From Sipunculus nudus (lineage: Eukaryota > Annelida > Sipuncula > Golfingiida > Sipunculidae): DNA of 64,000 bases. The notes under the pieces were generated by a model. That model made no database searches. It saw only the letters and a list, made by a program, of their open reading frames with translations, and was not told the origin of the DNA. The stretch's first letter is position 1. Each line of letters opens with the position of its first letter. Shown piece by piece: positions 3,485-58,334 of this stretch. A program made the translations under genes and the position numbers. Location: the NCBI GenBank assembly GCA_026874595.1, contig CM049306.1, positions 15,831,019 through 15,895,018 on the forward strand. The letters are read 5' to 3'.

Positions 3485-5769
3485 TTTTTAGCTCAGCTGA
3501 CTGTAAGTCATCTGAGCTATAGCGATCACTCTTTGTCCGTCGTCCGTCTGTCCATCTGTCGAGCCGTCTGTCCGTCCGTCCGTCTGTCCATTAACCTGGC
3601 ACAAATCGTAACCGCTGGACCTAGAATCTTGTAATTTTACATTCTGAGAGGTCCATAAAAAATCTCCTTGGAAACCAGAAATTAGGTCTCTGTTACCCAT
3701 ATCCTTTAAGCTATGGGGCCCCAAAGTACCCCCCAGAATATTAAAAAATTTCATACAAAAACTTCAATATCTCATTAACTACATCACTGATGGTCATGAT
3801 TTTTTGCATACATATTGATCATGAAAAGTTTCATCAGTTCCTGCAGACTGGTGGTGCCACCTGTATTTTTCGATTTTTTTACGAATTTTTTTCTCTATTT
3901 TTGAGACCTTTAAAAATGTGAACATCTGTTAACAGGGCACAAATCGTAAAGACTGGACCTAGAATCTTAATTCTTGACACACTGAGAGACCTATGATTAG
4001 TCTCCATGGAACCAGAATTTATGTCTCTGTTACCAATATCCTTAGAGCTGTTGGGCCTCAAAGTACAGTACCCCCCCCCCCCCCAGAATAGTCAAAAATT
4101 TCATACATAAACTTCAATATCTCATTAACTACATCACTGATGGTCATTATTTTTTGCATACATATTGATCATGAAATGTTTCATCAGTGTCTGCAGACTG
4201 GTGGCGTCTTCTGTATTTTTCGATTTTTTACAAATTGTTTTCTCTATTTTTGAGACCTTTAAAACTGTGAACATCTGTCAACAGGGCACAAATTGTAAAG
4301 ACTGGACCTAGAATCTTCATTACTCACACAGTGAGAGACCTATGAAAAGTCTCCATGAAAACCCGAAATAAGGTCTCTGTTACCCATATCCTTTGAGCTG
4401 TGGGGCTCCCAATTACCCCCCCCCCCCCCGAATAATGGAAAATTTGATAAAAACAAATTGCAACATCTCAATAACTACAACACTGATGGTCATGATTTTT
4501 GGCATACATATTGATCAAGAGGTGTTCCATCAGTTCCTGTAGACTGGTGGTGCCACCTGTATTTTTTCAAATTTTTACAATTAATTTTCTCTATTTTTGA
4601 GACCTTTAAGGGTGTAGTTATCTGTCAACAGGGTACAAATCGTAACGACTGGACCTAGAATCTTCATTCTTGATACACAGGGAGACCCATGAAAAGTCTC
4701 CATGGAAACCTGAAATTAGGTCTCTGTTACCCATATCCTTTGAGCTATGGCACTCCAAAGTACAGCTCAGAATAATGGAAAAATTGTTACAAAAGCTGAA
4801 GTATCTGAACAACTAATGCAGAGATCACCATAATTGTTTGTATGGATATTGATCATGGAGTGTTTCATCAGTTTCTCCAGACTGGTGGCATCACCTGTAT
4901 TTGTTCGGGTTTTTAACGAATTTTTTTCTCTATTTTTGAGACCTTTAAAGATATGAACATTTGTTAATTGGGCACAAATTATAACAACTAGACCTAGAAT
5001 CTTCATTCTTGACACACTGGGAGACCCATGAAAAGTCTCCATGGAAACCTGAAATTTGGTCTCTGTTACCCATATCCTTCAAGCTATAGGACTCCGAAGT
5101 ATCCCTCAGAATAATGGACAATTTGATACAAAAGCTGAAGTATCTGAACAACTAATGCAGAGATCACCATGATTCTTTGCATGGATATTGATTATGGAGT
5201 GTTTCATCAGTTACTGCAGACTGGTGGCACCACCTGTATTTGTTCAGGTTTTTTACGAATTTTTACTCTATTTTTGAGACCTTTAAGGATGCAGTCATCT
5301 GTTAACGTGGCACAAATTGTAACAACAGGACCTAGAATCTTCATTCTTGTCATGCAAGGAGGCCCATGAAAAGTGTCTATGGAAACCTGAAATTAGGTCT
5401 CTGTTACCCATATCCTTCAAGCTATAGAACTCCAAAGTATCCCTCAGAATAATGGAAAATTTGATACAAAAGCTGAAATATCTGAACAACTAATCCAGAG
5501 ATCACTATGATTCTTCGCATGGATATTGACCATTAAGTGTTTTTATTAGTTTCTGCAGACCAGTGGAACCCCCTGTATTTTTTTTTTTAAAGTTAATGCA
5601 TTTTTTCTCTATTTTTGAGATATATAAATACAGTCACAACCTTGGCCTGTTGGTTAATCTGTTTGATTCTTCAGTTGAATGGGTATATACTACTATTCAG
5701 ATGATAAAATTTCCTTTGGCTAATCTCTTTCCAGTCAGCTGAGCGTCATGACCCATGGGTCACTTGTTT
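3485..5769 (+). mobile_element. Family-A Helentron-like non-autonomous element, inserted in copia gag
   Basis: It starts in a T-run followed by a perfect 5' hairpin (stem AGCTCAG/CTGAGCT, inner stem TGACT/AGTCA with one mismatch in this copy), then a GTCC/GTCT microsatellite (about 3537-3595). About six tandem monomers of roughly 330 bp follow, each with a TTTGAGACCTTTAA segment and a GGTGGYGCCACC-like palindrome, and two of them carrying poly-C tracts. The 3' end has TCAGCTGAGC (inverted copy of the 5' motif), the palindrome GACCCATGGGTC and CACTTGTTT. There is no target duplication; the copia gag frame resumes if the insert is taken to sit within a run of Ts. Short ORFs inside are repeat translations. 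Confidence 0.8.
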
Positions 5770-6053
5770 CGTAGCAATGTCAAATTCCAGTATATATGAA
5801 TCCATAGACATTTCAACAGTTTTTCTGAACCGACTGAACTTACTGTATGCCTCGTACTCATGTCCACAACATCAGCACCAAAAGATTAATCCAATGTCTC
5901 CAGCAGGATTTCAAGCCCATTATCAGCATCTAGCTGGTCTGCTGTCAGTTTATTCACAACTTTACTGGCCCTTTTATGTCCATCAAGAGATCCTAGCAGC
6001 ACAACAATTCCCCTTTCTTTCTGTTTCAGGTCTGTCACCTTCTCCCACATCTT
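5770..6053 (-). pseudogene. Copia gag middle segment
   Basis: On minus, MWEKVTDLKQKERGI and following codons (6045-5886) are gag capsid. After a stop and frameshift near 5885, the frame EYEAYSKFSRF continues to 5770, where the family-A insertion cuts it; the next gag codons are at 3484. On the other side, the preceding gag codons lie beyond the 8-bp duplicated target at 7888-7895. The Met commonly called upstream of this block lies in inserted DNA and is not the gag start. Confidence 0.8.
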
Positions 6054-9022: not shown

Positions 9023-11033
9023 TTTTTAGCTCAGCTGACTGAAAGTCATCTGAGCTATAGTGATCACTCTTTGTCCGTCGTCCGTCTGTCCGTCCGTCCG
9101 TCCGTTAACCAGGCACAAATCGTAACCGCTGGACCTAGAACCTTGTAACTTGGCATTCTGAGAGGTCCATGAAAAATCTCCTTGGAAACCAGAAATTAGG
9201 TCTCTGTTACCCATATCCTTCGAGCTATGGGGCCCCAAAGTACCCCTAAGAAAAGTAAAAAATTTCATACAAAAACATCAATATCTCATTAACTACATCA
9301 CTGATGGTCATGATTTTTTGCATACATATTGATCATGAGATGTTCCATCAGTTCCTGCAGACTGGTGGCGCCACCTGTATTTTTCGATTTTTTACGATTT
9401 TTTTTTCTCTATTTTTGAGACCTTTAAAAATGTGAACATCTGTTAACAAGGCACAAATTGTAAAGACTGGACCTAGAATCTTTATTCTTGAGACATTGAG
9501 AGGTCAATGAAAAAATGTCCATGGAAACCAGAAATTAGGTCTCTGTTACCCATATCCTTCGAGCTATGGGGCCCCGAAGTACCCCCCAGAATAGTCAAAA
9601 ATTTCATACAAAAACTTCAATATCTCATTAACTACATTACTGATGGTCATGATTTTTTGCATGGATATTGATCATGGAGTGTTTCATCAGTTCTGCAGAC
9701 TGGTGGCACCACAGGTCTGTATTTTTTTAATTTTTACGAATTTTTTTCTCTATTTTTGAGACCTCTGAAGATGCAGTCATCTGTTAACAGGGCACAAATC
9801 GTAACAACTGGACCTAGAATCTTCTCTCTTGACATGCAGAGAGGCCCATAAAAAGTCTCCTTGGAAACCTGAAATTAGGTCTCTGTTACCCATAACTTCT
9901 GAGTTATGGGGCTCCGAAGTACCCCCCAGAATAATGGAAAATTTGATACAAAAGTTCAAGTAACTGATCAACTATTGCATTGATCACCATGATTCCTTGC
10001 ATTGATTTTGATCATGGGGTGTTTCATCAGTTTCTGCAGACTGGTGGTGCCACCTGTATTTTTTCGATTTTTACGTGTTTTTTCTCTATTTTTGAGACAT
10101 TAAAAGATGCGGTCATCAGTTAACAGGGCACAAATCCTAATGACTGGACCTAGAATCATCTCTCTTGACATGCAGGGAGGCCCATGAAAAGTCTCCTTGG
10201 AAACCTGAAACTAGGTCTCTGTTACCCATAACCTCTGAGCTATGGGGCTCAGAAGTACCCCCCAGAATAATGGAAAATTTGATACAAAAGCTCAAATATC
10301 TGAACAACTATTGCATTGATCACCATGATTCTTTGTATGGATATTGATCATGGGATGTTTCATCAGTTTCTGCAGTCTGGTGGCGCCACCTGTATTTTTT
10401 CGATTTTTACGAATTATTTTCTCTATTTATGAGACCTTAAGATGGGGTCATCTGTTAACAGGGCACAAATCGTAACGCCTGGACCTAGAATCTTCTCTCT
10501 TGACATGCAGGGAGGCCCATTAAAAGTCTCCTTAGAAACTTAGAAAAAGGTCTCTGTTACCCATTTTCTTCAAGCTATGGGGCTCCCAAGTACCCCCCAG
10601 AATGATGGAAAATTTTATACAAAAGCTCAAGTATCTGAAAAACTATTGCAATGATCACCATAATTCTTTGCACGGATATTGATCTTGGAATGTTTCATCA
10701 GTTTCTGCAGTCTGATGGCGCCACTGGTATTTTTTCGATTTTTACGAATTTTACAGGGCACAAATCGTAATGCCTAGACCTAGAATCTTCTGTCTTGACA
10801 TGCAGAGAAGCCCATAAAAAGTTTCCTTGGAAACCTCAAATTAGGTCTCTGTTACCCATATTCTTCGAGCTATTGGGCTCAGAAGTACCCCCCAGAATAA
10901 TGGAAAATTTGATACAAAGCTCAAGTATCTGAACAACTAATGCATTGATCACCATGATTCTTAGCATTGATATTGATCATAGGGTGTTTCATCAGTTTCT
11001 GCAGTCTGGTGGCGCCATCTGTATTTTTTTCAA
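9023..11033 (+). mobile_element. Family-A element, 5' part with about five monomers
   Basis: Canonical 5' hairpin at 9028-9060, GTCC microsatellite at about 9075-9104, then monomers of about 330 bp with TTTGAGACC and GGTGGCGCCACC marks (for example near 9365). It is interrupted at 11033 by another A start in a T-run. Confidence 0.75.
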
Positions 11034-11582
11034 TTTTTAGCTCAGCTGACTGAAAGTCATCTGAGCTATAGCGATCACTCTTTGTCCGTCTTCCGTCTGT
11101 CCGTCTGTCCGTCCGTTAACCAGGCACAAATCATAACCACTGGACCTAGAACCTTGTAACTTGGCATTCTGAGAGGTCCATGAAAAATCTCCTTGGAAAC
11201 CAGAAATTAGGTCTCTGTTACCCATATCCTTCGAGCTATGGGGCCCCAAAGTACCCCCCAGAAAAGTAAAAAATTTCATACAAAAACTTCAATATCTCAT
11301 TAACTACATCACTGATGGTCATGATTTTTTGCATACATATTGATCATGAGATGTTCCATCAGTTCCTGCAGACTGGTGGCGCCACCTGTATTTTTTTTAT
11401 TTTTTACGAATTTTTTTCTCTATTTTTGAGACCTTTAAAAATACAGACACAATTTTGCCCTGTTGGTTAATCTGTTTGATGCTTCAGTTGAATGGGTATA
11501 TACTACCATTCAGATGAAAAAATTTCCTTTTGCGAAATCTCTTCCCAGTCAGCTGAGCGTCATGACCCATGGGTCACTTGTT
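11034..11582 (+). mobile_element. Short complete family-A element (549 bp)
   Basis: One monomer only: 5' hairpin, GTCC tract (11084-11115), GGTGGCGCCACC near 11377, then the 3' motif TCAGCTGAGC, palindrome GACCCATGGGTC and CACTTGTT. It is the smallest complete copy in the window and defines the minimum of the family. Confidence 0.8.
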
Positions 11583-13802
11583 ATTAAATTTTAACACATT
11601 TTTAGCTCAGCTGACTATAGTGATGGTCCGTCTTCTGGCTGTCTGGCCGACTGTTTTGAAATCGTTGGACTTACAGACCCAAAATTATACATACAGTTAG
11701 ATGTCCCCAAGTTCTCCTAGCAAACCAAAAACTTGGTAACTGCAACTTTGGGAAAACTTTCATTTTCAAGTAAAAACCTATTGTAATACTTAAAAACTGC
11801 CCAATATGAAAACCACTGGTGTCAATATATTCATGTTAATATAACCATTTCTGCATATATTTCCTATTTCATTCTTGAAATTAGGTCAATATTGCGTCCT
11901 CAAACATAATTATGACTTTGTCAAAAATCATGAAGTATATTTACTCACCTTAGGCCCAAAAAAATAAAATGCTTGGTTCTCAGGCACCACCCGCCTGAAT
12001 TTTAACCCCAATCATCATACATTTTAATTTATTTTTAGCGAACCTGTGAGCTTATGCGATGGTGTGGCGTTGTCCGTTGTCCGGCGTCCGGTGTCCGGCG
12101 TCTGTATGTTAACCCATACTATCTTGAAAACGGCAAGAATTAGCATCACAAAATTTATGCATAAAATTAGTCATCTAAAAAACTCTATTGGATTTTGCTT
12201 ATTTTTTGGCTAACTGCATTTTCTTAGATTTTATAGGGAAAAAGCTAAAAAAGCTTAAAAAATCTTCTTCTCCGAATATGTTCAGCCAAATTGTCCAATA
12301 TTTTACAGAAATGATTCCTGAAACAATCTCTCTCAAATTTGTTCGAATGGTGTAAGTTCAGGGAATTTTGGCCGAATTACAGGAAGTTGAACTTAGTCAT
12401 CTGTCCAAAAAAGCATACTAAAATTACAGTCTCAGAATGGCTTGAGCTATCATCACCAAATTTTATGCCAATGTTGGTCACATGAGTCATATCTGAAATT
12501 GAGGTATTGGTGGCGCCACCTACATCGGCCTTTTTTGTACGGGGGTCATCAGTGCCCGTATCATATTGACACCTACAAATAACTTCTTCTCTGAAACGAA
12601 ATGGCCAAATTGTTTAATATCGCACAGAAATGATCCTAGGGTAGTGCTTTCTGAAGTTTGTTCAATGGTCTCAGTTCAGTGACTTTGGGCTAAGTTATGG
12701 GAAGCTGAATTAAGTCATATGCCATAACAGCCCATTTTAGCTCAGTGGCTACAAAAATCTTCTTCTCAAAAACCACTGGGCCAAATTCTTAAATCTCACA
12801 CATTTATTATCCTTAGATGTTGATAATTCAAGTTTGTTCAAATGGTCTCAGTTCAGTGACTTTTGGCTGAGTTATGGAAAGCTGAATTTAGTCATATGCC
12901 ATGACAGCCCATGTTAGCTAAGTGGCTACAAAAATCTTCTTCTCAAAAACCACTGGGCCAAATTCTTAAATCTCACACATTAATTATCCTTAGAAGTTGA
13001 TAATTCAAGTTTGTTCAAATGCTTTTGGTTCAATGATTTTTGGCTGAGTTATGGGAAGCTGAACTTTGCCATTATGCTGTATTTTCCCATATGAGTTATA
13101 AACCTACAAAACATTTTTCGACTGATGATACTGAGGCCAGTTTGTTTAATATTTTGCAAGAATAATTCCTTGAATCATTCTAATAATAATTGTCTTTTAT
13201 GGTTCCAAAAAATGAATTTTGGCTGAATTATAAAGATTGAATTGAGTCATTTTACCATATATGTTAGCTGTGTGAAGCAGATACATCTAGCCTAGCGCCA
13301 GTTTATCAGCATCCATTACATCATGCCTCTAGACATTTAGATTTCAAAATATCTATGGAAAATATTGACAAGAATGTTTTTTAAAAGCTTTTAAAAAATG
13401 TAGATTTATGATATTACATATCATCTGTACACTATTCATAATTTCTCAGGAATAGCAGGAGCTACCATCCCCAAATTTTATGCAATTATCAGTCACATAT
13501 CAAATATTGATGGATTCAGCTTATTTTTGCTATCTGCATTTACTTAGATTTTACAGGGAAAAAGCTGATAAAAACTTCTTCAATATTTTACAGAAATGAT
13601 CCCAGAGGCAAGCCTTCTCAAGTTTGTTCAAATGGTTTGTGTTGGATAAATTTTAGCAGAGTTACATAACAGGCCAAGATTGTGTATGTTTCTTGAATAG
13701 GTTGAGAAACTGCCAACTGTTTCAGATTTGGCAACAGATCAAGAGTTCATTCAGTGCAGCCAGATTTAGACCAAGAGTTCAATCAGTGCAGCCAAGCACA
13801 AG

Positions 13803-13890
13803 GCATGTGATCACCTCATGGGCAGCATGTGATCATTTCATTGGTAGCATGTGACCACCTCATGAGTATCATGTGATCACCTCATGTTCA
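13803..13890. repeat. 22-bp minisatellite, four units
   Basis: Units beginning GCATGTGATCACCTCATG start at 13803, 13825 and 13847, with a fourth variant unit after that. Each is partly palindromic around TGATCA. Confidence 0.7.
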
Positions 13891-14204
13891 TTCAGTGCAG
13901 CCAAGTACAGGTCAAAAGTTCACTCAGTCTAGCCAGGTGCAGGTCAAGAGTTCACTCAGTGCAGTAGCCTGAGCCAGTAATTTGTCACAGTACACTCCGG
14001 ACAACACCCCCTCTCACCTAAGCCTGGTCAGCCTGGTGCATCAGACTCAAGGCCTGATATTCTGACCTGTCTATGTGTCTTTAATGGCTTTTTCGTTCAC
14101 AAGACCAGTGTCGCCATCTACAATGACTTTTGCAAAGTGTATGTGCCTGCTTAATTCTATGGAGGAATTTGATATATCAGCCTGAAATTGGGCATATTTA
14201 TACA

Positions 14205-15386
14205 CTAGCTGATAGACCCAGTATACCGGGCTTATTACCGGGGTTGGGGAGATTTATAAACTGAGATGTGAAATGTATGCTAATTTTTTTTATTCTAAAA
14301 GTTAACAGAAAATATAGGTTTTCAGTGGGAAACTGTCTCAATAAGATATGTATAAACATTTTGGCACGACTTCAGAATAACTCACGAACCTCTATGAGGC
14401 ACAACAGTTCTATGAACAAAAAACGTTTCTATGTCCAGCTGCCTGTATCTTAATTTTGCCACTTATGTTTATCTGCCTCTTACTTTTAAATTACATGAAT
14501 CCTAAACATCATCCCGCCCGTCTGTATAAACTTATAACCTGGTGGAGACAATTCGTGAGAGATCCTGCAGTCGCTCCAATATTTTTAACATTTATTTTGT
14601 GGGGCTCTCCTCGTGGCATGAAATTTATACCCCGGTATATTTACCTTGAAGACCTGGACATTGATGGTGTTTACATTGCGAACCGGAATGAGACGCGGGG
14701 GCATTCAGGTTTTCAATGATATTTGACTGGATTCTATCATTGGACGTATTAAGATTAGGTTGATGTGAGGAACACATGAAACATTAATTAAATGTACGTT
14801 GCAAGGAAACTGTTCCTGAAGAAAGAAACAGAAATATGCATACCTCGTAAGCAGCAGAAGCAGACCCAACGGGACTGCATGCAGAGGGCCCGTATTCATT
14901 TTCAACAGCCGCAAACTTTTTTTAATCGTATCAGACAAATTTTGAGGCCTGAAACCCCCGGCACCACCCCAGCCCTGTTCCTGAAATTGGGACCTTGAAT
15001 TAGGTTTTGTCATTAATCCTCCTGGGTTGAACTCTCCATTTCATAAAGCGAGAAACATGTGTTTTACCCTTTTACTGACCATGCACGTGGTTCAAATCCA
15101 CGTTATTCATATGAACAAAAGTCCTTAGTGTTAGGGGTTAAGTGACCACGATGCACGCATTCCGGTGATTGCCGAAGGCAGTTCAACTGTGCTCGGTAGA
15201 AAAATGGAAAAATCACTCAAAATTATATGTATATTAAAAATTATTTATTTTCATATCGCCTATGTCACTGCGGGGATAATAACCTTTAAAATGATGTATG
15301 GCACAATATTGTACAAAACGCGGTTATAGAGAACACTGCGAACAAACGTGAACTGAATTCCTTTTATAAGTATTAGATGTCAAATA
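14205..15386. other. Unidentified insertion within family B
   Basis: The B body breaks off after ATTTATACAC near 14204 and resumes with TAGCTTTGTCGTATAC near 15387, judged against the B copy near 57820. The insert has open frames at 14268-14453 and 14456-14719 (plus) that resemble nothing I know. Its 15060-15110 region has a T-arm-like hairpin around GGTTCAAATCC. No inverted ends or clear target duplication were seen. Confidence 0.45.
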
Positions 15387-17345
15387 GCTTTGTCGTATAC
15401 AAGACTGGTGGTGCCACCTTCAATAATTTTTGTGTTGTGTGCACCCATGCCAGAATTTCAGCAGTGATGTTTGTGTATTGTTTCTTGTTCAAAATGTTTA
15501 GTACTTGCATCGTTCATATATATGAAAAGTAGTGGTTCAGCATTGAAGCGTTATACCTGGTGTATATCCATATGCACAGGTTCGCATTAGGCCTGTAGGC
15601 CTTGTTGAATCTTTCAATAGGAGAATTTCCTATGATTTCCTATGTTATGTAGTGCTTGTACCTGTTTTGCAAAAAAAAACCCTGTTAATTTCATGCTTTT
15701 CCCTGATCATATGATATTTTTATTGAAACATACAACAAAGGTAAATAATAAAATGCCACCCGCCTTAGATTTCTGAAAAAAAGTGCCTGAAAACCATACC
15801 TTTTTATTATTTTTGCCTAACAAGATAATTGTTGAAGCTAGAGATTTTTTCTTGGGATTATCTTTATTTAATCAAGATTTAATTTTATACTAGAAATCAG
15901 ATTAGAATTTCATAAATTTTAGTGATTAGCATAATTGTAAAATCATTACCTTAAATTTCAAGTTGGCCAACTTTGACCATTGCACATCGTTTTCCTATTG
16001 GCAGTATTAATTCAATTTTCACAGTATGTATAAATAAGGACTTAAACTTTTAAAAATCTGAAATTTGAAAAACAAATTCAAAAGTATGGCTAGAAATTGA
16101 TTTTTATTTGAAGGCCCTATTGTATTGACTTGCATTGTCAATCCCCAGGCAGCCTACTTCTGGTCACTACAGCCCTGCCTGGGTAACCTTATTAGTAATG
16201 CAACACTGGTTGAGCACCCCTGTTAAATTGTCACAGGGGTAAAGTAATTCACATACCCCCCCCCCCCACCCCATCCCTACACACACAGCAATATTCACCA
16301 AGTGTAATTTCAAAAATGTTTTTGTTTAAACTGTATTTTCTTAATTGTAAAGCTGTTTCACTCATATGTACCAAACTTTGCTTGAGATGGTAATTCAAAG
16401 ACTAATCAAGAAGTAATGTTACTTGTTTAAAGAAATTAATTTCCATTTAAATAATGTTTACATATTAAAATATAATTAAACTCATCAGTATGAATAAATT
16501 GATAACATATGATCCAAATTATTGATAAATAAAGGCATTTGATAAATATTTGATACTTAAAAAATAAGTACATTTGATGCTTGATGTGGTATTATCTGAC
16601 AAATTTAGGGATATATTATCATGCATTTTAGAATTGTGAATCAACTTATGTGTAGAATTAATTAATGTGTTCTGCAATTCATATTTTAAGTAAAAAGCTG
16701 TAAATTGTAATATGTTCAATCTCATAAATGATATATGAAAGCCATGATTAAAATGTTTTGAATTTGCATTTGGAAATATGTTTAGCCTGTTTTTAGAATT
16801 ATTAATTACATTAACACATAGTTTGTTTGTTAAATGTATCTTTCATATCACTCTCAGGTCCATCATGTTTTTAATCCTCAGTGCATTAAATGGTTTCAGG
16901 TCACAATATTCATGGATAACATAGTGCAATATGCACTTATCAGATTGAGTTTATGCTCATTTGGAAATTTTTACAGCATTTTATTGCAGAGTATAAATTA
17001 AACGTGTATTATTATACTTCAGCTAGTCTCCACTTAATATTTCTGCCTTATAGTATAATTGACAGGGGTATATACATTCCCAGGGGAGTGGTTATTTTAA
17101 GCACACATTACTATCACATAGCTGAAATACTGATACTTGATACTTTATATTTGATCATGAGAGGCTCTTGCATCTTTGGTATAGTTCATCAAAAGGCACA
17201 GTATTAGTTTGGCAAACATGTATTTAGTATTTGATAGCACGGCCATTTCCTCTTAGCTAATTTATATAAAAACAAATTTAGAAAAAAGTATATCTTGCAC
17301 TTGCTAAAAATCAGATGAGTGCTGTGACCCATAGGTCCCTTGTTT

Positions 17346-18268: not shown

Positions 18269-21200
18269 TTTTTTAGCAAACCTGTGAGCTTATGCGATGA
18301 TGCGGCGTCAAACGTCGTGCGGCGTCTACGTTAACCATAGCTATCTCAAAAACGGCAGGAGCTAGCATCACCAAATTTTTTGCAAATAGTCAGTCATCCA
18401 AAAAACTATATCAGATTTTGTTTATTTTTTTTTCTAACTGCATTTTCTTAGGTTTTATAGGGAAAAAGCTAAAAAAGCTTTAAAAATCTTCTTCTCCGAA
18501 ACTGTCCAGCCAAATTGTCCAATATTCCCTGGAACAATCTTTCTCAAGTTCGTTCAAATGGTTCCAGTTTGGAGATATTTGGCCGAGTTACAGGAGGTTG
18601 AACTTTAACAAAGTTCTGTGCAAAAAAGCATATTAAAATTACAATCTCAGAAACGGCTGGAGCTATCATCACCAAATCATCTGAAACCATATGGCCAAAA
18701 TGTTTAATATCGCACAGAAATGATCCTAGGGTAGTGCTTTCTGAAGTTTGTTCAAATGGTCTCTTTTAAGTGACTTTTGGCTAAGTTATAGGAAGCTGAA
18801 TTTAGTCATATGCCATAACAGCCCATTTTAGCTCAGTGGCTACAAAGATCTTTTTCTCAAAAACCACTGGGCTAAATTCTTAAATCTCACACATTAATTA
18901 TCCTCAGATATTGATAATTCAAGTTTGTTCAAATGGTTTTGATTCAGTGCTTTTTGGCTGAGTTACGGGAAGCTGAACTTAGCCAGTTGGCTGTATCTTC
19001 CTATATGAGTTATAAACTTGCGAAACGTTTTTCGACTGATGCCACTGATGCCAGTTTATTAAATATTTTACAAGAATAATCCCTACATAAATTCTTATAA
19101 TAATTGTCATTAATGGTTCCACATGAATGATTTTTGGCTGAATTATGGAGATTGAATTGAGTCATTTTGCCATATATGTTAGCTGTGTGATGCATTTACA
19201 TCTAGCCTGGCACCAGTTTATAAGCATCTATTACATCATGCCACTAGACATTTAGATTTCAGGTTATATTTGGTTAATATTGACAAAAAATTTTTTTGAA
19301 AGCTTTTAAAAAATTTAGATTTATGATTGAAGTTATTCATCATACCAGGCAATGTTACAATCATGGATATTCAGCTCTCTGTGGCTATATAAAGACAACT
19401 ATACGTTGATTATAAATTATTGGTATCCCTACTCAACTTAATTCAAGAATTTGCCATCAATGATATATATGTGTATTTTAATTTTGATGTCTTTGATGGT
19501 ATTCTCATTTACAAGACAGGTGGTGCCACCTTCATTGACTAGAATTTTTAAAATTTGGAATAATGATCGGTCACATGTGAACTGCTATGCCCTCATTTTT
19601 GGTTGACCTCTGACCTTTCCTCTCTGCCCAGCGTCCATTTGTGCGTCTTTTTCCACACATAAACCCACATATCTCGGGAACCGTTTGACTGATAAGGCTA
19701 AAAATTTTGCACAAATGTAGCCCTTGGAAAGCTTTATAACATACACTTAAATGGTGGCGCCACCTGAAACAATCATTGCACAGCGTCCATCTGTTCATCT
19801 GCCTTGGGATAAAAACACATATATCTCTGCATTGGTTGGACTCACCCGCCTGAAATTTTGCATGTGTATACATCCTGGACAGCTTTCTTGATTTCATGAC
19901 AGGTGGCGCCACCTACTTTCACGTTTTAGCTACAGACATCCAAGCTCATATCTCCGGAACCGTTTGACCAGTTGGGCCAAAATTTTGCATGTGTAAAGAT
20001 CTCCCATAGCTCTTTATCATACGCAAAACTGGTGGTGCCACCTGTAACCATTTTTGCACAGTGTCCATCTATTCATCTGCATCGGGATAAAATCACTCAT
20101 ATCTCGGCAGTGGTTTCACTTATCCACCTGATATTTTGCAGGTTTATAAATCTTTGATAGCTTTCTTAATTTTATGACAGGTGGCACCACCTACATTCAT
20201 ATTTCGCTGCAGACATCCAAGCTCATATCTCAATAACCATTTGACTGATTTGGCAAAAATTTTGCATGTTTATAGATCTCACATAGCTCTTTATCATACG
20301 CAAAACTGGTGGTGCCACCTGCAATCATTTTTGCACAGCATCCGTCTATTTGTTTGCCATGGCATAAAATCACTCATATCTCGGCAGTGATTTGACAAAT
20401 CTGTCTAAAATTTTGCAGGTATATACATCTTGGATAGCTTTCTGGATTTTGTGGCAGGTTGCGCCACCTACATTTATGTATACGCTGCAGACATTCAGGC
20501 TTATATCTCAGGATTGGTTTGACATATCCCCCTGAAATTTTGCATGTGTATAGATCTCATTTAGCTCTTAATCATAAACAAAATTGGTGGCACCACCTGC
20601 CACCATTTTTGCATAGCACCCATTCTGTTTTTCTGCCATGGGCTAAAATCACTCATATCTTAGTAGTGGTTTAACTTATCTGCCTAAAATTTTGCATGTT
20701 TATACATCTTGGACAGCCTTCTGGATTTTGGGGTAGAAGGCGCAACCTACATTCAAATTTACGCTGCAGACATTCAAGCTCATATCTCAGGAACCATGAC
20801 CAATTTGGCAAAAATTTTGCATGTTTATAGATTTCACATAGCTCTTAATCATACGCAAAACTGGTGGTGCCACCTGCAATCATTTTTGCACAGCATCCGT
20901 CTATTTGTTTGCCGTGGCATAAAATCACTCATATCTCGGCAGTGGTTTGACATATCTGTCTAAAATTTTGCAGGTTTATACATCTTGGATAGCTTTCTGG
21001 ATTTTGTGGCAGGTGGCGCCACCTACATTTATGTATACGCTGCAGACATTCAGGCTTATATCTCATGACTGGTTTGACATTTCCCCCTAAAATTTTGCAT
21101 GTGTATAGATCTCATTTAGCTCTTAATCATACACAAAATTGGTGGCACCACCTGCCACCATTTTTGCATAGCACCCATTCTGTTTTTCTGCCATGGGCTA

Positions 21201-21645
21201 AAATCACTCATATCTTAGTATTGGTTTAACTTATCTGCCTAAAATTTTGCATGTTTATACATCTTGGACAGCCTTCTGGATTTTGGGGTAGAAGGCGCAA
21301 CCTACATACACATATCGGCTGCAGACATCCAGGCTATTATGCAACACACCTCACTCTATTTCCCCTTGCCACTCATCCATGCCTCACTTCACCTTTCCTA
21401 CTCTGATTTTGGCGGATACATGAAGTCGCTTGTTGACTACCCATATTCTAGTTTTTGTGTTGTGTGCACCCATGCCAGAATTGAAGCAGTGATGTTTGTT
21501 TAATTGTTTCTTGTTCTTAGTGTTTAGTACTTGCATTGTTCATATACATGTTACACATGTTCTTGAAAAGTAATGGTCCAGCATTGAAGCATTATACCTG
21601 GTGTAATCTCATTGCACAGGTTCGCATTAGGCCTGTTGGCCTTGT
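18269..21645 (+). mobile_element. Family-B element containing an E copy
   Basis: T-run start, then GCAAACCTGTGAGCTTATGCG and a short GGCGTC-type tract. The body runs to about 19535, is interrupted by E (about 19540-21451), resumes with TTTTTGTGTTGTGTGCACCC and ends with CACAGGTTCGC, AGGCCTGTTGGCCT and TGTT. Family C starts in the very T-run that ends this copy. Confidence 0.75.
19540..21451 (+). mobile_element. Family-E element, 5' worn, with 280-bp monomers
   Basis: It begins near a TCACATGTGAACTGCT segment shared with the intact E copy. Tandem half-monomers of about 140 bp follow, each with a GGTGGYGCCACC palindrome. It ends with GGCGGATAC, a hairpin and CCATATTCTAG, followed by T. The expected 5' GTATCCGCC hairpin is absent, so the 5' end is truncated or diverged. 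Family B sequence flanks both sides. Confidence 0.65.
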
Positions 21646-22304
21646 TTTTTTAGTTCACTCTGTGAACTTATGCCATGGCGCAGCGTCCGCCGTCCACTGT
21701 CCACTGTCCACTGTCAACTGTCCACCGTCCACCGTCTGTTGCCAAATATCTCAACAGCCACATCAGCTATCTTCATAAAACTTTGCAGAATTACTAATCT
21801 TGGGATGGACATGCAAAAATAAGCTTTTGGTGGCGCCACCTATGTTGACCTACTTTCTGCGGGATTAAATGGTCTTTTAAACTTCTTTCAAGATAAGTCA
21901 TAAAGTATTAATATTTGGCCTTCATATCATAGTCAACAGTTCCTTAGAGGAAGGGGAATAATTTGAGTATAAATTCAGTCAAGTCATATTCAAGATGGCT
22001 TCTCTACGGAACTTCAAATTCTGTCGATCGTAAAATATGACAGCTTGATGTGTTTCTATGTATACATGATGTATTGTCTGTTACCAAATATCTTAGGAAC
22101 TGCTGCAGCCTTCAGTTTCAAATTTCACAGGAATATTAATCATGTGACTGCTAAATGATTTTGACCTCCAGGTGGCGCCACCTGTGTTGACCTACTTTCT
22201 GCGGGGAAAAATGGTCTTTTCCACTTCTTCCAAGATAAGTCACAAAGTATTGATATTTTGGCCTTCATATCATAGCCAACAGTTCCTTAGAGGAAGGGGA
22301 ATAA
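21646..22304 (+). mobile_element. Family-C 5' part (first duplicate)
   Basis: It starts in the T-run ending the B copy, then has GTTCACTCTGTGAAC (a self-complementary hairpin), a short run of CCGTCCACTGTCC units (about 21686-21740) and one 339-type monomer with GGTGGCGCCACC at 22171-22182. Family E interrupts it at 22305. The intact relation is in the second duplicate (24934 onward). Confidence 0.75.
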
Positions 22305-22350
22305 TTGTATCCGCCAATACAGAGTTTTGCGGATACTATGTTTTCAGCTG

Positions 22351-33300: not shown

Positions 33301-33302
33301 AG

Positions 33303-39710: not shown

Positions 39711-41568
39711 TTTTTAGCTCAGCTGACCCTAAGTCATCTGAGCTATAGCGTCCGTCCATCTGTCCGTCCGTCCGTAAATGTGGCACGTTTTGAAACCGTA
39801 AGACCTAGGAATCCAAAATTCAGCATAATGTTAGATGTCCCCAAGATCTCCTACCAAGCCGAAAACTGGGTCTTTGCGACTTCATTCCTTTGAGAAATTA
39901 AGGAAAACCTCAATTTTTTATTAAAAACCTATTTTCACACTTCAGAATATCAAAACCACTTATCTGTTTTTCCTCATATTTACCATAAATATTCCTCTAT
40001 ATAGTTCCTGTGTACATGCCAGAAATTAAGTCTGTTAAGTATAAATTCTTTAAGTTATGGGCCCGAACATAATGGACTTTGTAAAAAATCAGGAAAAATA
40101 TTTACTTAACATGAAAAATTTTGAAACTAGAGTCTATTTTCCCAAGAATATAACTATGTTTTATTAAGATTCAATTGTTTACCCAAAATTAGATCTGAAT
40201 TTAGTAAATTTTTTAAGTTATTAGCATAAAAATAAAATCAGTACCTTAAATTTTGCCCAACTTTGACCAAGGCACGTTTTTTTCCTGTTAGTACCATTGA
40301 TTTAATTTTCACAGCATGTAAACATAAATATTTAATTTGTTAAAATCTGAAATTTGAAAATAAATGCTTGAAAATTAAGCTAGTTATTGATTTTTTTCTT
40401 GAGGCTCTATTGTAGTCATTTGCTTTGATTACAGATGCAGGGTCCCACTCCAGGTCACTGGAAGTCAGCTATGCCAGGATTTCTGATTTGTTACAGTCAC
40501 TGGGGGAGATCCCCTGCTGTGACAGGTGTACAGTTATTCTCATATCACCCCACCCCCCCCCCCCCCCCACAAACCCAACCCACCAAGTGTTATGCAGTAA
40601 TTGTTATTGTTTTCACTGTATCTCCTTAATTGTAATGCTGTTTCCACTCTGATATGCAAAAAACTTTCCTTGAAAAAGTAATTCAAGGTGTAATCCAGAA
40701 AATGCAATGTTGTGTAATGTAGCATTTTTAAAGAAATCAGTTTTCTTTTAAATGATTTTAACAAATATAATTGAACCCATCAGTATGTTTAAATTTATAA
40801 AATATGAAGCACATTATGGATAATGTGAAACACAATTAAAATTGTGAAATCTAAATCAAGTATTATTTTTAGATATTTATTGTTTTGCAGATTTAAAAGA
40901 TATATGTTTGTGGTAAAAATAAATAAACATTTGTATGCATGATGTGGTGTTATCTGACAAGATTGTGATATATAATGATGCAGTTTTTGCAGATTATGAA
41001 TCAACTTTTATATTCTGATATATATGTTATATTAGAAATGTATAGAAATATAAACTTAAATTTAAAAAAATTGATGTGATAAAAAAATGAGGATTTAATA
41101 CAAACATTTGTTCATTATCTTCCTGCCTCAGCAGAATTTGAGATCAGGCTTTGTTTGCCCTGTTTTATGTTGTTAATTGGTTATATTTCAACTGTATACA
41201 TTTCATTAAAAAATACATATATATTTAATAATATATTTTATACAAAAAATAGATTCAATTGAACAAATGTGTAAACTACTGAAATGTCAACAGTTAATCA
41301 AAAAGCCAACTAATGATCATGTTAATAGTACAGATCATTTGTTCACAAACTGCTCACATGCTTCAGTTTCAACATTAGGAAACACATGGTCAGGTCACAA
41401 AATATTATTTGCAACAATTTCTTGTTTATCAATACAAACCAATCATATAAACCAACCATGGCCTTTAGTACCTCTTCCTCTTACACTTTATCTCCATTTG
41501 ATATTATTTTAGATTTTTACCTTCAAGGTCAACTTCAGCTGAGCACAGTGACCCATGGGTCCCTTGTT
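39711..41568 (+). mobile_element. Family-A2 element, complete (1.86 kb)
   Basis: 5' T-run, hairpin AGCTCAGCTGA...TCATCTGAGCT and a GTCC tract (39750-39775). The body contains a stretch (about 39905) reading CCTCAATTTTTTATTAAAAACC, which serves as the empty site for the A insertion at 49626. A poly-C tract lies at 40550-40568. The 3' end is TCAGCTGAGCACAGTGACCC, ATGGGTCCC, TTGTT. It has no inserts and is the best reference for A2. Confidence 0.8.
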
Positions 41569-43290: not shown

Positions 43291-46200
43291 TTTTTAGCTC
43301 AGCTGACTATAAGTCATCTGAGCTATAGTCATGGTCCATTGTCCGTCGTCCGTCCGTCTGTCTGTCCGTCTGTCCGTCCGTCCGTGCGTCCGTCTGTCTG
43401 TCTGTCCGTCTGGATGTCCATCCGTAAGACTGGCACGTTTCGACACCGTTGGACCTACGAATCTGAATTTTGGCATACAGTTAGATGTCCCCATAATCTC
43501 CTACCATGCCAAAAATTGGGTCAATAGGACTTCGTTCCTTTGAGATATTAAGGAAAAACCTCAATTTTTTATTAGAAATCTATTTTCACACTTCAGGACT
43601 GCCTAATATCAAAACCACTCATCTGGTTTTCTTCATATTTACCATAAATATTCCTCTATATGGTTCCTATGTACATGCCAGATATTAAGTCAGTATTATA
43701 TAATTTAAAAAAGTTATAGCCCCAAACATAATGGACTTTGTAAAAAAATCAGGAAGATATTTGGTCACTTAAGACCAAAAGTGTTAAAGGTAGGGACTTT
43801 TTTCCAGTAATACAACTTTAATTAATCAAAATTTAATTGTATACCAAAAATTAGATCAAAATTTGTTAAATTTTTTTAAATATTGGCAAAAATATAAAAT
43901 TGGTACCTTAAATTTTGCCCAACTTTGGCCATAGCACATTTTTTTCCTGTAAGTACTGTGGATTTAATTTTCACAACATGTATACATAAGGATTTAATCT
44001 GTTAAAATCTGAAAATTGAAAGTAAAAGCTGCAAAATTAGGCTAGTTATTGAATTTTTTTGGAGGCTCTTGTTGTATTCCCTTACATTGTCAAGCAGTCC
44101 ACTTTGATGACTGTAGGTCATTCAGTGCACATCTCTATGCTCCCCAGGCTGATTACATATTTTTAGATGTCCCAAAATTCTCCTACCATACCAAATATTG
44201 GGTCATTAGGACTTTGTTCCTTCGAGATATTAAGGAAAAAAAAACTCTGTTTTCCATAAAAAAAGCCATTGTTACACTTCAAGGCTGCCTAATATCAAAA
44301 CCACTGATCTGTTTTTGATTGTACTTAGTATTCACATTCTTTTATACATTTTCTATGAACATACCAAAAATTAGGTCAGTATTGGGTATTATTTTGAAGT
44401 TATGGGCCAAAACATAATGCAATTTTTTTAAAAATCAGGAAATATATTTACTCACCTAACATGAGAATTGCTGAACCTAGAGACTTTTTTTCAGGAATAT
44501 AACTTTATTTAATCAAGATTCAATTGTTCACCCAAAATTAGATCTGAATTTTGCAAATTTTTCAAGTTATTAGCATAAATAAAAAATCAATACCTTAAAT
44601 TTTGTCCAACTTTGGCACTGATGATTTAATTTTCCCAGCATATACGCATAAGGATTTAATCTTTTAAAATCTGAACTTTCAAAAGAAATTGATTGGAATG
44701 AATAGCTTTTATTCATGTTTTCATACACCATGTCAAGTGTTGTTTACATCTAGCCCACCTAGTAGTACAGCCTTCACTTGCATTATGTAACCCACCCCAG
44801 GCAGCTTACCTTGGCCCAGCTTGGCCACTACTAGCAGGCTTCCCCTCTACCCTGCACTCATCCCTCCCCCCCCCCCCCAGCTGGTGCATAAACTAGATGA
44901 ATGTTATAATTTTTCTGTATTTTATTTTATTCTTGGACATGCTACATTTTAGAGTTTGTATTGAACCACCAGGGTTACAATGATTAAAGTGTACATTTAA
45001 TTGTGTCCACAAAGTGGTGTATTGCTGTGAAAGTGTGGATGTTCATGAGATAAGTAATTCCTTACTTCAGAAGAGTAAAAAGTTCACCAGGTGTGAAATT
45101 GACTATTAATTCCAGTAATTAATTAAAACTGGGATAGTAATTAGCACAATGATATTGTTTGTCCCTCATTCAACCAACAGTGTGTATACTTTATTTGAAA
45201 AGATGTTTTATTTTATCAAATTTACTTTTATTTTATTTTGGTGAATAAAATTAAGCATGTCCTGAAAACTCCAATGTGCAAATTTTTTTAATAGTGATTC
45301 AAGTAATATTCTTGTAGATGCCATGTTGTGGCATTATTTTCTTTAAAAATCAGTTTAAACATTTATGAATTAAAAATAATAAAATATATGTGTATGCATA
45401 ATATGACCCAATGTTTTTTACTCTGTATATATAATGATTGCAACTTTTGCAACAATTCTAATATTTTAACTTATATTTTCAGGTTTTTTAATTAAAAATT
45501 TATAAACCTGTAAATAAAAAAAATGATTCAGATAAAAACTTCTTAATGGAAAAAGTGGATCTGCTTAAAAAAATAGGATTATATATAAACTTAAATGCAT
45601 TATTCTCTTGAAAGTGAAATAAAGATATTAGTCCATTCTGTCCACTTGCCTGTCCATCTGTAAATTTTCGTATGCAACACAGTATCTCAAAACTTTTACT
45701 GTTTTTCTTCATGACAGTCTTGTCAGAGTATTAGTTTGCAATCATATATTTAGAACTTTACTATAACCAAGTAGGAGGGCCCCTTTCCTCTTAGCTTTTC
45801 ATATTCTTATATAAATGAAAAACATTACAATAGAATATTTCTACATCCACCTTCGTGCTGCCCTCACTTTTCCCTTCTCCGAACCCCATCCCAAAGTCAG
45901 CTTCAGTAAGCAAGAACAAGATGAATCAGATATATTCATACTTTAATATTTTGTATAACTATTCGTCCATAGGTACCTATGTACATGCCAGAAATTATGT
46001 CAATATTGTGTAATATGTAGACATAGTGGGCATCACAATAATGTTCCTTGTCAAGACTAAAGAGATATTGTGTCATACAGTCACATATTCATAAATCACT
46101 TCATCAGCATAGTTAATCATAACATCATATCTGTCAAATTGAACGCTTGCAGACTACCATACATTTTAGATCCTTCAACAAATAGCCTTATCATCATTCT

Positions 46201-46487
46201 ACTACTGCTTATTACTGCTGTCATTGCATTCATATTTGCTCAAATATATCACAATTTTCAACCCCTTCTAAATAAATAAAAAATGAACCACTTTATTTGA
46301 CTCTATTAATCCATCAGTCAGGTAATTTCATTTATCATTTACTCACATATTACATTACATTCCTTTATAATAGCCAAACATGCACATGATATTCATAAGC
46401 TTTATCGACTCGATATAGTATCACAGTGGAGAAACATTTATAGTCCAATCACGATCAGCTGAGCGCCGTGACCCATGGGTCCCTTGT
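43291..46487 (+). mobile_element. Family-A2 element with two body units (3.2 kb)
   Basis: 5' T-run and hairpin, then a long GTCC/GTCT microsatellite (about 43338-43420). The A2 body is present twice (TAGATGTCCCC near 43482 and TAGATGTCCCA near 44164, about 680 bp apart). Poly-C lies at about 44867-44878. The 3' end is GATCAGCTGAGCGCCGTGACCC, ATGGGTCCC, TTGTATT. Confidence 0.75.
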
Positions 46488-49625: not shown

Positions 49626-51674
49626 TTTTTAGCTCAGCTGACTGAAAGTCATCTGAGCTATAGCGATCACTCTTTGTCCGTCGTCCGTCTGTCTGTCTGT
49701 CTGTCTGTCCGTCCGTCTGTCCGTCTGTCTGTCCGTTAACCAGGCACAAATCGTAACCACTGGACCTGGAATCTTCTAACTTGACATCCAGGGAGTACCA
49801 TGAAAAATCTCCTTGGAAACCTGAAATTAGGTCTCTGTTACCCATAACCTCTGAGCTATGGGGCTCCGAAGTACCCCCCCAGAAAAATGGAAAATTTGAT
49901 ACAAAAGCTCAAGTATCTGAACAACTATTGCATTGATCACCATGATTCTGTGCATGGATATTGATCATGGAATGTTTCATCAGTTTCTGCAGTCTGGTGG
50001 CGCCACCTATATTTTTTCGATTTTTACGAATTTTTTTCTTTATTTTTGAGACCTCTTGAGATGTGGTCATCTGTTAACAGGGCAAAAAATTGTAATGACT
50101 GGACCTAGAATCTTCTCTCTTGAAATTCCGGGAGGCCCATGAAAAGTTTCTTTGGAAACCTGAAATTAAGTCTCTGTTACCCATAACCTCTGAGCTATGG
50201 GGCTTCAAAATAACCCCCAGAATAATGGAAAATTTGATTCAAAAGCTCCAGTATCTGAACAACTATTGCATTGATCACCATGATTCTTTGCATGGATATT
50301 GATCATGGAATGTTTCATCAGTTTCTGCAGTCTGGTGGCGCCACCTGTATTTTTTTTATTTTTACGAATTTTTTTCTCTATTTTTGAGACCTCATAAGAT
50401 GTGGTCATCTGTTAACATGGCACAAATCGTAACAACTGGACCTAGAATCTTCTCTCTTGACATGCTGAGAGGCCCATGAAAAGTCTCCTTAAACACTTGA
50501 AATTAGGTCTCTGTTACCCATAACCTCTGAGCTATGGGGCTCTGAAGTACCCCCCGGAATAATGGAAAATTTGATACAGAAGCTCAAGTATCTGAACAAT
50601 TATTATATTGATCACCATGATTCTTTGCATGGATATTGATCATGAAATGTTTCATCAGTTTCTGCATTCTGGTGGAACCACCTGTATTTTTTCGATTTTT
50701 TAAAGTTTTTTTTCTCTATTTTTGAAACCTTTTAAGATGTAGTCATCTGTTAACAGGGCACAAATCATATCAACTGGACCTAGAATCTTCTGTCATGACA
50801 TGCAAGGACGGTCATAAAAAGTCTATATGGACCTGATACAAGGTCTCTGTTACTGATATCCTTTCAGCTATGAGGCTCGGAAGTTCCTCCCAGAATAATG
50901 AAAAAATTGATACAATAACTAATGCATTGATCACCATGATTGTCTACATTTGTATTGATAATGGCTTGTTTCATCAGTTTCTGTAGACTGGTGGTGCCAC
51001 CTGTATTTTGATTTTTTAAGAATTTTTTTCTTGATTTTTGAGACCTTTAAACATTTGGTCATCTGTTAACAGGCCACAAATCATAATGACTTGACCTAGA
51101 ATCTTCTTTCTTAACATGCAGGGAGGTCCATGAAACATCTTGGAAATCTGAAATTAGGTCTCTGTTACCCATATCCTTCATGCTCTGGGGCTCCGAAGTA
51201 CTCCCCAGAGTAAAGATTTGGTCATCTGTTAACAGAGCACAAATTATAATGACTTGACCTAGAATCTCCTTTCTTGATATGCTGGGAGGCCCCTGAAAAG
51301 TCTCCTTGTGCACCTGAAATTACATCTCTGTTACCCATATCCTTCATCCTATGCCGCTTTGAAATACCCCCCAGAATAAACATTTGGTCATCTGTTAACA
51401 GGGCACAAATCATAATAACTGGACCTAGAATTTTATTTTTTGACATGCTGGGAGACCCCTGAAAAGTCATCTTGTAAACCTTGAAATAGGTGTCTGTTAC
51501 CCATATCCTTCATGCTACAGAGCTCCATAGTACCCCAATGAATATTGGATGATTTTATACAAAAGATCAAGTTTGGAAAAAGTATTTCATTCAAATTTGA
51601 CATTCAGATGATAAAATTACTTTTGTCAATGTCTTCCTGGTCAGCTGAGCGTCATGACCCCTGGGTCACTTGTT
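49626..51674 (+). mobile_element. Family-A element, fourth layer (2.05 kb)
   Basis: Canonical 5' hairpin, long GTCT/GTCC microsatellite (49677-49736), about five monomers plus shortened 170-bp half-monomers at 51210-51540, then TCAGCTGAGCGTCATGACCC, TGGGTC and CACTTGTTTT. It lies in the A2 run that has six Ts in the uninterrupted A2 copy at 39711-41568. Confidence 0.85.
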
Positions 51675-56214: not shown

Positions 56215-56452
56215 GACCATATTGACCATTAAGTCTTTTTATTAGTTTCTGCAGACTGGTGGAGCCACCTGTATTTTTTACGCATTTTTTTCTCTTTTTT
56301 GAGATATATAAATACAGACACAATCTTGGCCTGTTGGTTAATCTGTTTGATGCTTCAGTTGAATGGGTATATACTACCATTCAGATGATAAAATTTCCTT
56401 TTGCGAATCTCTTCCCATTCAGCTGAGTGTCATGACCCATGAGTCACTTGTT
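56215..56452 (+). mobile_element. Family-A 3' tail
   Basis: One partial monomer, the CAGTTGAATGGGTATATACTA linker also seen before the other A ends, TTCAGCTGAGTGTCATGACCC and CACTTGTT. No 5' part is present. Confidence 0.7.
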
Positions 56453-58334
56453 ACCTTCAAGGTCAACTTCAGCTGAGCACAGTGACCCATGGGTGCCTTG
56501 TCTCAAGTTTGTTTGAATGGTCCCGGGCAGTGAATTTTGGCCAAGTTACAGGAAGCTGAACTTAGTCAGTTGGCCAAAAAAGTCACTAAAATTACAGTTT
56601 CAGAAACAGCTGTAGCCATCATCTTCAAATTTTATGCAAATGATGGTCACATGACTCATATTTTAAATTGAGGTATTGGTGGTGCCAGCTGCATTGACCT
56701 TTGATGTATGGGGTTCATCAGTCATCAGTACATTGGCCCAAAATTTCTCAGGAATAACTGGAGCTAGCATCTCCAAATTTTATGCAAAAATCTGTCATAT
56801 ATCAAATGTTGTGGGATTGAGCTTTTTGTGGTGCCACCTACATTAACTTACATTTACAGGGAAAAAGCTAAAAAAAATTGAAAATCTTGAGATCATTGAG
56901 CCAAAATGTTCACTATTTCACAGAAATAATCTCAGAGATGAGCTCTCTTAAGTTAAGTTAAATGGTTAAGGTTAATTTTGGCTGAGTTACAGGAATTTGA
57001 ACTTAATCATTTGGCATACTCTGAAATGACAGGAGCTAGCTTCACCAAGTTTTGTGCAAATGTTGGTCGCATGACTCATATTTGAAATTGTGGTTTTTGT
57101 GGCCTGATTTTTACCATCAAAAACATAGTAATTTTATCCTCTTTCAGCACAAAAATGTTTTATGATGCAACTGTCAAAATGAATGGTTTAAGCTATCACA
57201 AGAATTATCCTAGGGTAGGATTCTTTCAATTGTATAAGAATAGATTGGGCAACATTTTGTCTGCATTTATAAATAGCTTGGTAGACTGCCAACTATTTCA
57301 GACTTGGCAACGGGCCAAGTCTCAGTCTAGATCTATTTATAGCTTTGGCAGATTGCCAACTGTATCAGATAATGCAACAGGTCAAGAGTTCACTCAGTGC
57401 AGCCAGGTACAGGTTAAAAGTTCACTCTGTACAGCCAGGTGCAGGTAAAGAGTTCACTCAGTGCTAGCAATTTGTTCTGGTCCACTCAGGGAAACTGCCT
57501 TTCTCACATAAGCCTGGTCAGCCCAATGCACCTGGCTCAAGAGATGTTTGCTGTATTGGCCGGATATTTTGACCTGTCTATGCATCTTTGAATGGCTTTC
57601 TTGTACACAAGACTGGTGTCAGCTCCTACAGTGACTTTTGCCAATTGTTTATACCTGTTTATTTCTCAGGAGGGATTTGATATATCAGCCTGAATTGGGC
57701 ATATTTATTCATTTTGGATAGCTTTGTTGTATAAAAGACTGGTAGCCCAACCTACAACAAATATTGCACTGTGTATGTCCCTGTTTTTTCTTTTAGGAAG
57801 GATTTGATATATCAGCCTGAGCATATTTATACATCTCAGGTAGCTTTGTCCTATGCAAGACAGGTGGCGCCACTTACAATAATTTTGCTGTGTATGCTCC
57901 TGCTTATTCCTCAGGAGTGATTCAACATATCAGCCTGATATTATACATGTTGATACATTGATATAGAATTGTTTTGTTGTATACAAGACTTGTGGCGCCA
58001 CCTACAATTGTTTAATGCATCTGTGCACATAGCTGAATAGTGGTTTTAAGTATCTGCCTGAAATTTTCATGTCCATACATTTGTGATGGCTTTATTGTAC
58101 ACAAGACTGGTAGTGTCACCTACAATCATTTTTTGTGTTGTGTGCACCCATGCCATTATTTCAGCAGTGACGTTTGTGTAATTATTGCATGTAATCGGGT
58201 TCAAAATGTGCAGTGCTTGCCTTGTACTCCTTCTTAATCACTTGTTACCATTCTGTGAGCATAAAATGAATGAATATTATTACTTGAAACTGATTATGAA
58301 ATAAAGCTTACAAAGTTCTGAGATAATGATAATC

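Follow-up and report, generated by a model that had tools for sequence, protein, structure and literature searches.

The DNA examined here is a stretch of 64,000 nucleotides from the sipunculan Sipunculus nudus (hereafter the window; C1:15,831,019-15,895,018, where C1 is contig CM049306.1 of assembly GCA_026874595.1, in a genome of 1.43 Gb). It contains three families of repeats, A (including A2), B and C, which share one plan of termini and are very probably HINEs, that is, non-autonomous Helentrons; family A would be moved by a Helentron of ~28.9 kb found elsewhere in the genome. All elements lie on the + strand, with 5' and 3' ends paired into elements by inference. The A element at 3490-5767 displays the complete plan (a 5' subterminal repeat and GTCC microsatellite, then tandem repeats of ~338 bp, and finally the 3' subterminal repeat with palindrome and CTTGT), while further A elements occupy 39716-41567, 43296-46487 and 49631-51673 (the last with termini and repeats), a short A copy at 11039-11581 has terminus matches at both ends, and an A 5' end (9028-9110) is inserted into the T-run of another A repeat. 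Family B is represented by elements at 12037-15605 (5' and 3' ends, palindrome) and 18275-21645 (termini, ~278-bp repeats), with a C element beginning in the T-run at the end of the latter, and family C by an element at 24940-30098 with termini, palindrome and repeats of 280 bp and 339 bp.

Each of the 14 definable 5' ends in the window consists of T5 or a longer T-run, an A and a subterminal repeat, with a GTCC-like microsatellite after it in the majority of A, B and C copies, and each of the 14 definable 3' ends consists of an inverted repeat, a GC palindrome (in some cases with mismatches) and CTTG. The 5' ends belong to A (n=9; 3491, 9029, 11040, 11605, 39717, 43297, 48750, 49405 and 49632, in every case directly after an A and at least T5), B (n=3; 12038, 18276 and 49123) and C (n=2; 21653 and 24941). 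The 3' ends likewise belong to A (n=10; 5735, 8191, 11549, 17311, 37199, 41535, 46455, 51641, 56419 and 56469), B (n=3; 15575, 21615 and 24903) and C (n=1; 30063); the palindrome is degraded at 8191 and the inverted repeat carries 2 mismatches at 17311 and 37199. All 28 ends are on the + strand, and scans of both strands of the window returned the palindrome with CTTGTT (6/6) and the A 5' box (6/6) only in this orientation. The palindromes are far more frequent than in shuffled sequence, with 10 matches to GACCCATGGGTC (≤1 mismatch) against 0.11 expected, three to AGGCCTGTTGGCCT (≤2 mismatches) against 0.22 and three to AGACCCCTGGGTCT (≤2 mismatches) against 0.14, some places being counted twice across patterns or strands. 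In the whole genome, exact GACCCATGGGTC with CTTGTT no more than 20 bases downstream occurs 9,765 + 9,797 times (19,562 in total), a reversed control pattern does not occur at all (0), and exact B and C ends number 54 and 208, respectively. The proposal of an earlier note on this DNA that one plan of termini runs through A, B and C therefore holds.

The same note described the bodies of the families as diverged and their plan as the same. The families have more than the plan in common: the block 3' of the subterminal repeat, aligned by eye, is alike in A (TCTGAGCTATAGCGATCA), B and C (TGTGAGCTTATGCGATGG and TGTGAACTTATGCCATGG, respectively). Because of this block, A, B and C look like diverged relatives at their 5' ends, with sequence as well as plan in common. 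It should be noted that the 28 ends do not represent 28 independent events, since the copies starting at 9029, 11040 and 49123 sit in T-runs of other copies, with A-repeat flanks common to them, and since a 3,288-bp tandem duplication (20242 versus 23530; window 20242-26989) doubles one B-C junction, including the B 3' end, the C 5' end and their repeats. The sequence named E (56725-58240, +) was likewise considered a relative; its body is B-like, in agreement with this, but inspection of the window by eye recognised no pair of subterminal repeats.

A T-run is present at 14/14 of the window 5' ends. Seventeen A 3' flanks of ~700 bp each, taken from 100 listed A ends on C1, are mutually distinct from CTTGT onwards (17/17), the presence of CTTGTT itself being no evidence as it was part of the search pattern. 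The two flanks of each of the eight window elements that have both ends show 0-1 base in common beyond the letters of the T-run (8/8), a comparison in which a target-site duplication composed only of Ts would be invisible. Among these flanks and elements, neither target-site duplications nor termini lying away from copy boundaries, either of which would have spoken against the proposal, were seen. The termini of A, B and C (T-run-AG... and CTTGT) differ from the 5' TC, 3' CTRR and A|T target of canonical Helitrons; they have the features of HINEs and Helentrons, namely subterminal inverted repeats near both ends and a palindrome after the 3' repeat.

A search of the genome for PF14214 (Rep) gave 143 matches, the longest open frame being 2,426 aa, of which a minority were read, beginning with five loci. 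In two of these five, those on C17 and C7, an A 3' end lies downstream of Rep. On C7, this end follows a helicase and then an endonuclease region, recognised by eye across frame breaks, and a second C7 copy has an identical A 3' end. The C7 protein contains the Pfam domains DUF6570, Helitron_like_N and PIF1, an HUH motif (PHIHM), paired tyrosines (YIVDY) and a Walker A motif (GGAGVGKS) seen by eye, and sequence matches in PDB to PIF1-type helicases as well as, across the helicase region, to Helraiser (7lcc). An element on C3 provides both termini: a complete A 5' terminus with the GTCC microsatellite at C3:10,551,024, the Rep domain at 10575424 and an A 3' end at ~10,579,898, a span of ~28.9 kb of which ~24 kb precede the Rep domain. 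The C3 and C7 elements are 97-98% identical over long aligned blocks (98% in the last part). As read (to 10,575,600), the C3 span contains no further terminus pair of A, B or C; PIF1 of C3 is presumed, on the model of C7, in the 4.2 kb at 10,575,600-10,579,850. When the C7 3' region was compared with the genome and 40 loci were scored among 1,936 candidates, the match stopped at query positions 1194-1197 (26 loci) or 1201 (2 loci), i.e., in 28/40, with CTTGT occupying 1190-1194. The two C7 copies align past this end because they are part of a segmental duplication. In C7, the sequence after CTTGT (TTAGATTCCC...) recurs, with a T-run before it, upstream of the truncated 5' side of this element (L020:429-1225), which is consistent with insertion in Ts.

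An autonomous partner with the termini of A was thus found, in the sense that termini and Rep occur together in C3 and Rep and PIF1 in C7. On this comparison of sequences, A, B and C are very probably HINEs, and A, including A2, would be mobilised by the ~28.9-kb Helentron with Rep, PIF1 and endonuclease. Several observations weigh against this assignment. No copy that was read is both intact and complete: the C3 Rep frame is short (498 aa), and the longer-read C7 copy lacks the first ~0.35 kb and has frame breaks in its helicase/endonuclease end. The C3 3' end reads ...CCCT (GGGTCCCT; L017, C3:10579850-10580100) and, in place of a final CTTGT, runs directly into the interior of an A HINE. The C7 pair is a segmental duplication in which the match continues 2.9 kb beyond the A 3' end, 10 of the 40 scored loci have no segment reaching that end, and the A 3' end on C17 comes only after HINE fragments, so this locus was rejected as a clean partner of A.

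The genome contains at least two diverged Rep lineages. Lineage-I genes were rejected as drivers of A, those on C4 and C8 having neither an A end with palindrome nor a B or C end within ~13-14 kb each (≤1 mismatch); around the lineage-I gene on C11 (~13-14 kb), A ends were the only ones sought and none was found. The endonuclease domain was detected by Pfam on C4, C8 and C13, below the cut-off on C17, and by eye only on C7. The related Rep loci C13 and C17 combine the endonuclease domain with Herpes_teg_N, which lies at the N-terminus of the Rep proteins (L004 and L005; E about 1e-12). OTU protease is a known component of Helentrons, and this domain is perhaps its counterpart. No B or C termini were present in the five first-read Rep regions, out of 143 Rep matches (≤1 mismatch), and the C3 and C7 spans contain only an isolated B3-like 11-mer with no palindrome. 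As a separate observation, a 1.2-kb piece of B body (window 14204-15380) is present inside the A-type Helentron at 90% identity in both copies (L018:2949-4106; L019:1475-2636).

These results bear on the remaining parts of the earlier note. Its identification of non-autonomous rolling-circle HINE or Helentron families is supported by the subterminal repeats, the 3' palindromes and the Rep-bearing element with A termini. The relative that it proposed to look for, carrying Rep and the same termini, exists for A (on C3, with both termini and Rep); none appeared for B or C in the Rep regions read. Its suggestion that a single enzyme reads the plan rather than the sequence is unsupported, since the partnership with A is matched in sequence and the Rep genes fall into two or more diverged lineages. 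For B and C, sequence-matched partners of their own are probable.

Two A elements of the window preserve parts of this Helentron. The element at 43,296-46,487 matches the C3 Helentron in its 5' region and microsatellite (91.6% over 784 bases) and the C7 copy (95.9% over 1.8 kb), has the 3' variant GCCGTGACCCATGGGTCCCTTGT in common with the large Helentron and, judging from these alignments, is a deletion derivative of it, a relation already known for HINEs and Helentrons in the sections of PMC4067079 considered here. Within the element at 39,716-41,567, positions 41,270-41,446 correspond to part of the C7 endonuclease region (77.5% over 178 bases); the 100-aa translation of this remnant had no match in Pfam.

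Unexpectedly, element orientation near one end of C1 is non-random. Strands of A ends are balanced over the whole genome, and among the 100 A ends that come first on C1 (64 kb-3.34 Mb) there are 12 on the + and 88 on the - strand, arranged in 10 runs (20,000 shuffles, mean 22, never below 12); 53/54 of those in the first 1.2 Mb are on one strand. Six strand domains were drawn from these 100 ends in C1:0-3.36 Mb, to which 98/100 fit by construction, the lone ends at 452824 and 2236572 being ignored in drawing and scored as misfits. Canonical Helitron 3' ends fit the strand of their domain in 15/16 cases (11/12 when >3 kb from an A end; circular-shift p = 0.017), and the only C end in these domains also agrees. 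LTR-like (long terminal repeat) controls fit in 1/4. Retroelement open reading frames (ORFs) in sampled pieces lie on the + strand within a - domain in L025, on the - strand at the margin of a + domain in L037 and, for a LINE (long interspersed nuclear element) in L029, on the + strand of a + domain. Window-like repeats occurred in 12 of 20 sampled 7-kb pieces (none in 8) and followed the expected strand in 11/12 with the second boundary at 1.45 Mb; L029, one of the agreeing pieces, holds a domain-defining A end, and L039 (2.13 Mb) misfits with either boundary. Pairs of A ends 100-250 kb apart are on the same strand in 393/461 cases, against 362.6 when the 12:88 labels are shuffled (8/2,000 as high), with no excess at 250-500 kb (512/652 against 513.3). 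Three further approaches were dropped: a LINE 3' end as second control (11 copies only), base skew as a domain signal (tandem arrays make noise) and dense B and C maps, for which exact patterns are too few (54 and 208) and a 3-mismatch search listed, among 100 matches of 457, only those with 0 mismatches.

Beyond this region, A1 and A2 (subfamilies of A) and Helitron ends were compared at C1 3.36-16.6 Mb, a set from one chromosome only in which pairs share members. Pairs are on the same strand in 33/41 cases at 3-15 kb, 46/60 at 15-30 kb, 37/63 at 30-50 kb and 98/182 at 50-100 kb, and in about half at greater distance. Taken together, 116/164 pairs at 3-50 kb agree (shuffle mean 81.7, 0/5,000 as high), as do 65/89 pairs between the A1, A2 and Helitron sets (mean 43.8, 1/5,000 as high) and 43/60 pairs of Helitron with Helentron ends (mean 29.7, 20/5,000 as high). 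LTR-like controls agree in 15/29 pairs at 3-30 kb (3.36-35.7 Mb) and in 10/19 pairs with rolling-circle ends at 3-50 kb, LTR-like matches beyond 23.6 Mb being left out of one comparison and those beyond 16.6 Mb out of another.

From the known biochemistry of Helitrons and HUH enzymes, Rep would nick the 5' end as single-stranded DNA, the palindrome near the 3' end would act as a stop signal and the copy would be joined into a T-run with no target duplication. Separately, insertion may use the strand exposed at replication forks, in which case neighbouring rolling-circle elements of different families would be co-oriented. Eukaryotic rolling-circle transposons of two superfamilies, the Helentron-type A, B and C elements and the canonical Helitrons, would then insert with a polarity set by the fork, and their orientations would form a fossil replicon map, in which coherence would usually extend over ~30-50 kb while domains close to one end of a chromosome would reach a megabase. 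We put this forward tentatively, at somewhat less than even odds, as an analysis of orientations that would explain the 53/54 ends over 1.2 Mb, the A pairs at 100-250 kb and the agreement of the Helitrons. It is weakened by the pair counts once they are corrected for composition and by the boundary problem at L033 (1.405 Mb), which switches sides when the A-only midpoint (1.393 Mb) is used, lowering the agreement of sampled pieces to 10/12. Also unfavourable are the weak runs tests within single sets beyond 3.36 Mb (A1, 36 runs versus 44.9, z -1.9; Helitron, 37 versus 41.8, z -1.1), the agreement of only 4/7 pairs of B or C ends at ≤100 kb (3/3 within 11 kb), and the reach of coherence beyond 3.36 Mb, which spans only ~30 kb and fades past 30-50 kb, near-megabase domains having been seen only in the first 3.36 Mb of C1.

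A somewhat less likely explanation is that nesting alone is responsible, with resident HINE T-runs on one strand taking up later Helentrons in the same orientation. Nested insertions of this kind are present in the window (9029, 11040 and 49123) and in L046 and L057, and the fading of coherence outside the first 3.36 Mb is as nesting would predict; nesting explains part of the short-range coherence. As the sole cause, however, it does not easily account for one-strandedness over 1.2 Mb in a region where window-like repeats (window families only) make up ~14 of 140 kb sampled (C1:0-3.3 Mb), the excess of same-strand A pairs at 100-250 kb, and the agreement of canonical Helitrons, which are known to target A|T, even when >3 kb from an A end.

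It is improbable that one strand of each domain is richer in T-runs or in another strand-asymmetric target. Pooled T6+/A6+ runs do number 72/45 in + pieces and 62/130 in - pieces, a difference that stems from a small number of tandem-array pieces, but T12 runs fit the domain strand in 10/19 cases after 7 matches of one array (534-573 kb) are dropped and in 17/26 with them. An asymmetric local target must nevertheless be controlled for, because barley Helitrons favour one (AAA 8 bp downstream of A-T; PMC5738225, in the part considered). Selection on gene orientation, by which intronic copies survive in one sense, appears equally doubtful: coherence over ~30 kb could fit gene size, but no host gene was seen among 10 chosen long ORFs of the window and 53/54 ends over 1.2 Mb is a stronger bias than selection in introns is known to produce. 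Segmental or tandem duplication, in which resident elements would have been copied along with their orientation and for which satellite-like arrays in the first 3.3 Mb of C1 and the duplicated C7 Helentron pair might argue, is very improbable given that 17/17 of the domain A 3' flanks (17 of 100 listed ends) are distinct at the junction.

Other features of the region are recorded for completeness. A canonical Helitron 3' end lies inside the C element at 27152-27181 (+; hairpin GTAGTCG...CGACTAC followed by CTAG), and this motif occurs 5,556 times genome-wide. Retroelement pol fragments are found on both strands of the window (1918-2421, -; 31992-34303, +; 58338-59342, -), unlike the rolling-circle elements, and Pfam assigned retroelement domains to 4 of the 10 chosen ORFs, a weak match below the cut-off to 1 and none to 5. 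In the first 3.3 Mb of C1, pieces L023, L024, L026, L036 and L040 are array-like or strongly strand-skewed, and L038:622-1065 encodes a SCAN domain (E 4e-13), perhaps, as a guess, of a retroelement capsid.

The significance of these results lies first in linking a coding Helentron to an abundant HINE family of the bivalve type, a link left unresolved in the portions of the oyster paper covered here (PMC7492417). The orientations offer a testable sign that eukaryotic HUH transposons use strand-specific fork DNA as bacterial IS200/IS605 elements do, and, if this is true, the direction of replication could be recovered from the orientation of such elements, as from an archive, where a genome has no replication data. 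Among the papers listed in searches of the open-licence PMC literature, none was seen to describe a Helitron orientation linked to forks or organised by domain.

The comparisons with known systems that follow rest on the sections of each cited paper that were considered. The plan itself has already been published for the Cg_HINEs of Crassostrea gigas (PMC7492417), which likewise have a 5' subterminal inverted repeat with a nearby inverted repeat, a GTCY microsatellite, tandem repeats, a 3' subterminal inverted repeat, a palindrome, T-rich or TT sites and no target-site duplication. What is new is the coding partner of family A with matched termini, whereas no autonomous Helentron could be linked there; strand domains are not mentioned in the portions covered. 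The HINE/DINE-1 elements and Helentrons of mites, flies and mosquitoes (PMC4067079) are similar in having deletion-derivative HINEs with common subterminal inverted repeats and palindrome and Helentrons with Rep, helicase and endonuclease, although the proto-Helentron described there is ~14 kb, compared with ~28.9 kb for the S. nudus element, of which ~24 kb lie before the Rep domain. Nested Helitrons are reported in Fusarium (PMC5148889). Helraiser and canonical Helitrons (PMC4778049) have in common an HUH Rep with helicase, a 3' hairpin terminator and no target-site duplication, but differ in their A|T targets and in their TC...CTRR ends, which A, B and C lack; for Helitrons, the possibility of single-stranded DNA from lagging-strand replication is raised in the same paper. 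The closest parallel for orientation is provided by IS608 and ISDra2 of the IS200/IS605 family (PMC5371812), in which orientation tracks the direction of replication and a strand-specific single-stranded target at the fork is established. These elements are bacterial and their fork dependence comes from experiments, whereas in S. nudus it is suggested by the orientation of the elements.

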